NCBI GenBank assembly: GCA_016938835.1
Contig: JAFGTW010000008.1
Location: forward strand, 1-51,017
DNA: 51,017 nt
Direction of reading: 5' to 3'
From: Patescibacteria group bacterium
Lineage (GTDB): Bacteria; Patescibacteriota; Patescibacteriia; Patescibacteriales; UBA12465
Part shown: positions 2,736 to 3,041 of the stretch, piece after piece
Position numbering within the stretch: position 1 is the first letter of the stretch
How the letters are laid out: every line of letters begins with the position of its first letter
Made by a program: the position numbers and the translations under genes
The notes under the pieces: model-generated
What the model saw: the letters and a program-made list of their open reading frames with translations, nothing else
Database searches by the model: none
Told to the model about the DNA's origin: nothing

Positions 2736-2980
2736 AAAAATCCCGTCTTCTCTGCCAAATATAAATTTAGCAGAAAGGACGGGATCTCCCGCGGTACCAC
2801 CTTTCTTATTTCAAGACTTACGCCTTCAAATCTCTTTCAACCTCTCTATCATAATATATGATGACAAGGTCTAAGCTATGATTACGGAGCTAGCCGGACA
2901 AGCACTAACGCACTTATCATCCTATGCGAATACGCATAAATTTATGCCCAACCCCGGCAATATTTACCGGGACATAAATA
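2736..2980 (-). promoter_or_regulatory. T-box riboswitch (transcriptional), trpB-trpS leader
   Basis: Minus strand AGAAAGG-TGGTACC-GCGGG-AGAT-CCCGT-CCTTTCT forms the classic antiterminator with 7-nt UGGNACC bulge. It is mutually exclusive with terminator ATCCCGTCCTTTCTGC...GCAGAGAAGACGGGATTTTTTT. An upstream hairpin has UGG in its 3'-side internal loop. Confidence 0.9.
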
Positions 2981-3012
2981 TGAATTTTAAGATTGGCAAA
3001 GAATCAATGACA

Positions 3013-3041
3013 ATAGTAGCAAAAATTTAAACAAAAGTCAA
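3013..3041 (-). promoter_or_regulatory. Sigma70-type promoter of T-box/trpB/trpS
   Basis: Minus strand TTGACT (3041-3036), 17-nt spacer, TACTAT (3018-3013). Confidence 0.7.

Follow-up and report, generated by a model that had tools for sequence, protein, structure and literature searches.

RESULTS AND DISCUSSION

A probable T-box upstream of trpB and trpS

The leader preceding trpB–trpS in the window, the whole 51,017-nt stretch analysed, which comes from a tiny-genome Patescibacteria bacterium, is very probably a T-box controlling transcription of a tryptophan salvage operon, with the specifier UGG in a reduced Stem I. A sequence-only reading of the same DNA had called a T-box here on the minus strand, and every feature that it listed, including the TTGACT-17-TACTAT promoter, was found in its place (Table 1). 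RF00230 matched the leader over 2945–2772 with 41.6 bits (E = 7.2e-8 in the 541-nt stretch searched), and on the genome scale (E = 2.6e-8) this was the genome's best T-box match. The RF00230 gathering score, 93 bits, lies above that of the leader and is a threshold for annotation, not a biological criterion. Folding of the whole leader, a check that the sequence-only reading had suggested, gave z = −5.67, and 0 of 200 shuffles were equally stable. The part of the leader that begins with Stem I and closes with the terminator is about 240 nt long.

The RRRNG–Stem III–AA segment of T-boxes is present as AAGAG–Stem III–AA. The antiterminator (AGAAAGG/CCUUUCU, bulge UGGUACC, GCGGG/CCCGU) displays the T-box bulge 5'-UGGNACC-3', folds at −12.1 kcal/mol and has both helices flanking the bulge paired in 4/4 genomes. 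Nucleotides 2772–2785 are common to antiterminator and terminator, making the two structures mutually exclusive; the seven-nucleotide bulge between paired helices and the competing terminator had both been described correctly from the sequence. The promoter/terminator scan listed only the A2 hairpin and did not report the terminator of the trpB–trpS leader, which rests on folding. Stem II is present and covarying, and no canonical AGUA/GAA S-turn or GUUGA..GAG K-turn was seen in the leader as judged by eye. A pairing between a leader CCA upstream of Stem I and the UGG of the T-box bulge, seen in the MFE fold, was rejected, as it is absent in locus L007.

Table 1. Coordinates of the trpB–trpS leader, its genes and associated elements (window positions unless another locus is given)
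Feature	Position	Strand	Details
trpB–trpS leader	3041–2734	minus	Promoter, Stem I, Stem II, Stem III, antiterminator, terminator
Sigma-70-type promoter	3013–3041	minus	TTGACT 3041–3036, 17-nt spacer, TACTAT 3018–3013
Reduced Stem I, 38 nt	2941–2978	minus	UUUAUG/CAUAAA outer helix, CCCGG/CCGGG inner helix, 3'-side bulge GUUGGG
Specifier UGG	2950–2948	minus	Within the 3'-side bulge of Stem I
Extra hairpin between Stem I and Stem II	2923–2938	minus	UAUGCG/CGCAUA; folding; kept with different sequence in L007–L009
Stem II, 9 bp	2897–2918	minus	U-G/G-U tandem, GUUA loop; double changes in 3 pairs, with 100% of cells paired
Stem IIA/B-like stretch	2882–2897	minus	CCGGCUAGCUCCGUAA; Rfam alignment; L121, a Trp T-box with long Stem I, has a near-identical stretch
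Further hairpin between IIA/B region and Stem III	2840–2870	minus	ACCU...AGGU; folding
AAGAG–Stem III–AA	2806–2837	minus	Double changes in 4 Stem III pairs
Antiterminator	2772–2806	minus	7-nt bulge UGGUACC at 2799–2793; RF00230 alignment, 4-genome alignment, folding
Intrinsic terminator, then U7	2734–2785	minus	Folding, about −33 kcal/mol, z = −8.05
Conserved short ORF, candidate leader peptide	2671–2721	minus	MKNFIFYNRCSEYWRF; one Trp codon (2680–2682); 4 genomes
Hairpin, then U-rich run; candidate second attenuator	2656–2688	minus	Trp codon of the short ORF in the 5' arm
trpB, tryptophan synthase beta subunit	1372–2592	minus	TIGR00263, 561 bits, cut-off 392 (NCBIfam curated)
trpS, tryptophan–tRNA ligase	348–1337	minus	TIGR00233, 367 bits, cut-off 177 (NCBIfam curated)
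thrS T-box of L002	L002 1472–1636 (G000:C48:13784–13948)	plus	Apical-loop specifier CUACCAA, inside outer covarying helix

The reduced Stem I and its specifier

Stem I is laid out as UUUAUG-U-CCCGG...CCGGG-GUUGGG-CAUAAA, with a single U opposite the bulge. The UGG is cognate to both regulated genes, and the purine that follows it is the arrangement expected for a specifier (TBDB rule). The hairpin of about 38 nt with UGG in a 3'-side loop, and its two helices, thus agree with the sequence-only reading, whereas its label of "ultrashort" names the wrong class: a side bulge between two short helices characterizes an intermediate Stem I (class IV), and an apical-loop specifier an ultrashort one (class III). 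That reading had also named a canonical long Stem I placed by a covariance model, with another specifier codon, as evidence that would speak against it. RF00230 placed no long Stem I in the leader, its alignment stopping at 2945 with 92 model positions skipped there. Only about 30 nt separate the inferred transcription start from the hairpin, leaving no space for a canonical long Stem I, and the long Stem I with a distal IDTM and an internal-loop specifier with a 5' AGUA strand, by which class I is recognized, was not found in the leader.

Conservation was assessed in alignment A2, which comprises the four trpB leaders of the genus (the window, L007, L008 and L009), three of them close and L007, in genome G005, divergent. 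Scanning named genomes for trpB yielded two Patescibacteria MAGs (G003 and G005) and two distant matches. In A2, 97.8% of cells were paired and 13 pairs were changed on both sides, a number reached in 0 of 500 shuffles, and sliding the partners gave 0–3. Three of these pairs lie in Stem I, where 100% of cells were paired: the outer helix contributes A-U to G-C and U-A to C-G, and the inner helix the third. Across the four leaders, the bulge keeps an invariant UUGGG. Promoter hexamers and spacing are identical in L008 and L009, and L007 has TTGACT-17-TATATT. The antiterminator and the inner Stem I helix, both nearly invariant, were therefore hardly tested by covariation.

Taken alone, the Stem I hairpin is the weakest piece of the leader (z = −2.69; 3 of 200 shuffles as stable), and the Stem I remnant aligned by RF00230 lies at 2945 and downstream, not on the hairpin. 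Both points would fit a genuine T-box whose specifier lies elsewhere, with the 38-nt hairpin incidental and the tRNA recognized by another region. Such an arrangement is improbable, however, given that four genomes, including that of the divergent L007, preserve the hairpin through compensatory changes and leave its UUGGG unaltered, that UGG agrees with trpB and trpS, and that independent Trp elements in other families, before trpD-like genes (L138 and L139) and trpB (L167), carry UGG at the corresponding position of an intermediate Stem I.

tRNA-Trp, the regulated genes and a proposed scenario

The tRNAs were located by pattern and RF00005 searches. The discriminator base of tRNA-Trp(CCA) is G73 in the same genome and likewise in four relatives (5/5 genomes). 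The U of UGGU opposite G73 makes a G-U wobble, and the UGGN of the bulge can thereby pair with N73-CCA of the cognate tRNA; the bulge of L007 has UGGC rather than UGGU, and both are able to pair with G73. The sequence-only reading had seen a puzzle in this U, implying either a G-U wobble or an unusual tRNA-Trp with A73. The wobble stands, while the unusual tRNA is rejected by the G73 of 5/5 genomes and the supposed oddity disappears: because U stands opposite G73 in 46% of the Trp T-boxes listed in TBDB (PMC7778990), the same wobble here is ordinary.

No trpA was found in 8/8 genomes of the genus (G000 and seven others), and the same search finds trpA in 14/14 control genomes. Four of the genus genomes carry trpB despite this. 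Since trpA is absent in the genus, TrpB probably uses external indole and serine, and the operon would probably make tryptophan from imported indole and then charge it.

We propose the following scenario for the leader. Uncharged tRNA-Trp(CCA) would pair with UGG in the side bulge of Stem I, and its G73-CCA 3' end with UGGU of the antiterminator bulge, stabilizing the antiterminator and allowing RNA polymerase to continue into trpB–trpS. When tRNA-Trp is charged or absent, the terminator would form, so that the operon is predicted to be on when tRNA-Trp is uncharged. As the distal elbow-binding platform (IDTM) is absent, the extra grip on the tRNA would have to come from the Stem II and IIA/B domain, as in classes III and IV.

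A short open reading frame ahead of trpB

Between the terminator and trpB, all four trp loci contain a short ORF of 16–17 codons with the common core R-C/S-SEYW. Synonymous change exceeds non-synonymous change among the four genomes (pS 0.27–0.61 versus pN 0.05–0.23), and in three of the four loci (L001, L009 and L008) a clear U-tailed hairpin includes the Trp codon of the ORF in its 5' arm. These features would suit a second tier, a leader-peptide attenuator added to the T-box rather than replacing it, through which charged tRNA-Trp would be sensed twice. We regard this as possible but doubtful, considering that the ORF has a single Trp codon and no clear ribosome-binding site, that the hairpin is weak in L007, that a search for the ORF motif in 384 genomes of the phylum found it in the window genome only, and that the comparison comprises four sequences. 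The B. subtilis anti-TRAP operon provides a precedent for sensing by T-box and leader peptide in tandem (Chen and Yanofsky 2003, as cited in PMC11255114). Its rtpA leader resembles the trpB–trpS leader in having a Trp T-box and, after it, a leader peptide that contains Trp codon(s); the trpB–trpS leader differs in the genes regulated and in its one Trp codon, and the second tier here is putative.

Relation to known T-box classes

Four T-box classes have been described: class I with a long Stem I and IDTM, class II (glyQS), class III with a short Stem I whose penta- or hexanucleotide apical loop holds the specifier, and class IV with an intermediate Stem I that has no IDTM and presents the specifier in a side bulge flanked by two helices (PMC10482949). 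Classes I and II generally control transcription, and III and IV mostly translation (PMC10482949). Reviews hold that a long Stem I with IDTM is required if tRNA is to be captured quickly, ahead of the arrival of RNA polymerase at the terminator (PMC7583486). The contrast that the sequence-only reading drew with translational short-Stem-I T-boxes is real in these papers (PMC7583486, PMC10482949).

In its layout, Stem I of the trpB–trpS leader is class IV-like and not class III; the Stem I of class IV is found here, whereas the output that is mostly translational in that class is replaced by a terminator with U7. With the class IV T-box of Actinomyces odontolyticus ileS (PMC10482949), the window element shares the intermediate Stem I without IDTM; it differs in reading Trp, not Ile, in using an intrinsic terminator instead of translation control, in the extra hairpin between Stems I and II, and in that no canonical Stem II S-turn or K-turn was recognized, features that class III and IV structures need, the K-turn of class IV joining Stem II to Stem I. 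Class III elements (Nocardia farcinica and Mycobacterium tuberculosis ileS) likewise have no IDTM and retain the Stem II domain, and their hexanucleotide apical loop (cognate codon and A) is common to other Patescibacteria elements (ileS and aspS). Unlike them, the window element has a side bulge and not an apical loop, and Patescibacteria versions often end in terminators.

With class I Trp T-boxes (L121 and Firmicutes trp operons), the window element shares UGG, the UGGU/UGGC bulge, the IIA/B-like stretch, Stem III and the terminator/antiterminator, but it has neither the long Stem I, with AG bulge and distal loop, nor the 5' AGUA strand of the specifier loop. The T-box L121, found in the bacterial class to which the window belongs, combines a long Stem I and UGG with an IIA/B stretch almost identical to that of the window element, which plausibly derives from such a long-Stem-I form.

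The thrS T-boxes

The second RF00230 match of the same genome precedes thrS (L002). In the family, 33 of 39 genomes have an RF00230 match, none of them (0/39) over the gathering cut-off, and the loci read, apart from the four trp leaders, are thrS leaders. In these, the apical loop that closes a short hairpin contains ACC, in most cases within the heptanucleotide C-N-ACC-AA, and the bulge has UGGA. A pattern search for tRNA-Thr matched only tRNA-Ser variable arms and chance sequences; RF00005 then gave tRNA-Thr(GGU), whose U73 pairs with the A of UGGA.

An outer helix, whose GAUUG...C(U/C)AA junction is conserved, encloses both Stem I and another, variable hairpin, and the element measures about 130–180 nt from outer helix to antiterminator. 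Over ten pairs of Stem I and the outer helix, 93.7% of cells were paired and 70 were double-change cells, compared with 20.2 (sd 3.7) in shuffles and 5–16 in slid versions. With a threshold of E ≤ 0.001, the thrS model R1 found matches in 116 of the 384 genomes of the class, and the 16 high-scoring loci read outside the alignment have the same design, nearly all before recognizable thrS starts. No recognizable Stem II S-turn was seen in the thrS architecture, S-turns being judged by eye. This layout is outside the four described classes.

T-boxes across Patescibacteria

At E ≤ 1e-5, RF00230 matched in 117 of 384 Patescibacteria genomes, only 13 of which were above the Rfam cut-off. Reading about 110 of these loci individually revealed a long Stem I in some (L110–L130 and others) and an ultrashort Stem I in many. 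A cognate C-ending codon followed by A occupied a 5–11-nt apical loop in 22 of 26 short-Stem-I loci, against 3/382 for non-cognate codons; the 26 were picked by eye before the count, with the synthetase family taken from NCBIfam, and it is this contrast that matters, 22/26 being no prevalence estimate. Two of the 22 (L196 and L213) were scored on a hairpin register differing from the preferred drawing. Terminator-like hairpins followed 54/68 loci without and 30/42 with an IDTM-like motif, against 41/330 mononucleotide shuffles; the split, made by a crude regular expression with errors both ways, is a rough one.

The loss of the IDTM, the lack of a recognizable S-turn or K-turn and a Rfam score of only 41.6 bits might also suggest that the trpB–trpS leader is a degenerate T-box, its tRNA response lost and the structure kept as a constitutive attenuator. 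The T-box bulge, Stem III motif and antiterminator are nevertheless intact and constrained in four genomes, and the phylum as a whole conserves short-Stem-I T-boxes whose specifiers are cognate; we consider degeneration very unlikely, even slightly more so than a specifier located elsewhere, and retain a tRNA-responsive T-box as our interpretation. The sequence-only reading had held a transcriptional Trp version to be notable in this lineage. Its reduced Stem I and terminator were upheld, whereas it is no isolated case, as the phylum has many short-Stem-I transcriptional T-boxes.

On balance, Patescibacteria probably run transcription-terminating T-boxes without IDTM, both class III-like and class IV-like, together with the thrS architecture outside the four classes. 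If so, the stated link between a long Stem I and transcriptional control would be broken, and natural transcriptional T-boxes without IDTM would allow the kinetic argument to be tested directly and would provide a compact switch that senses tRNA. The open-access papers searched included none on T-boxes in Patescibacteria. The Rfam cut-off misses about 90% of T-box-carrying Patescibacteria genomes, and tRNA-based control is consequently under-annotated in this large, mostly uncultured group.

Three further observations concern individual loci. In L192 (G300:C13), a T-box at about 251–463 with UGG in the hairpin loop of Stem I lies directly upstream of tRNA-Trp(CCA) at 508–584, and seems to control the gene of the tRNA that it senses. 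The T-boxes before aspS have the specifier AAC (Asn) or GAC (Asp), in the groups L163, L170, L195, L206 and L219 versus L175, L184 and L189; most of these aspS genes are best matched by aspartate–tRNA(Asn) ligase models, and that of L206 by an aspartate–tRNA ligase model. The two specifiers are consistent with one synthetase serving both tRNAs. Finally, L174 and its neighbour form a tandem pair of T-box matches (G227:C3:25376–25700).
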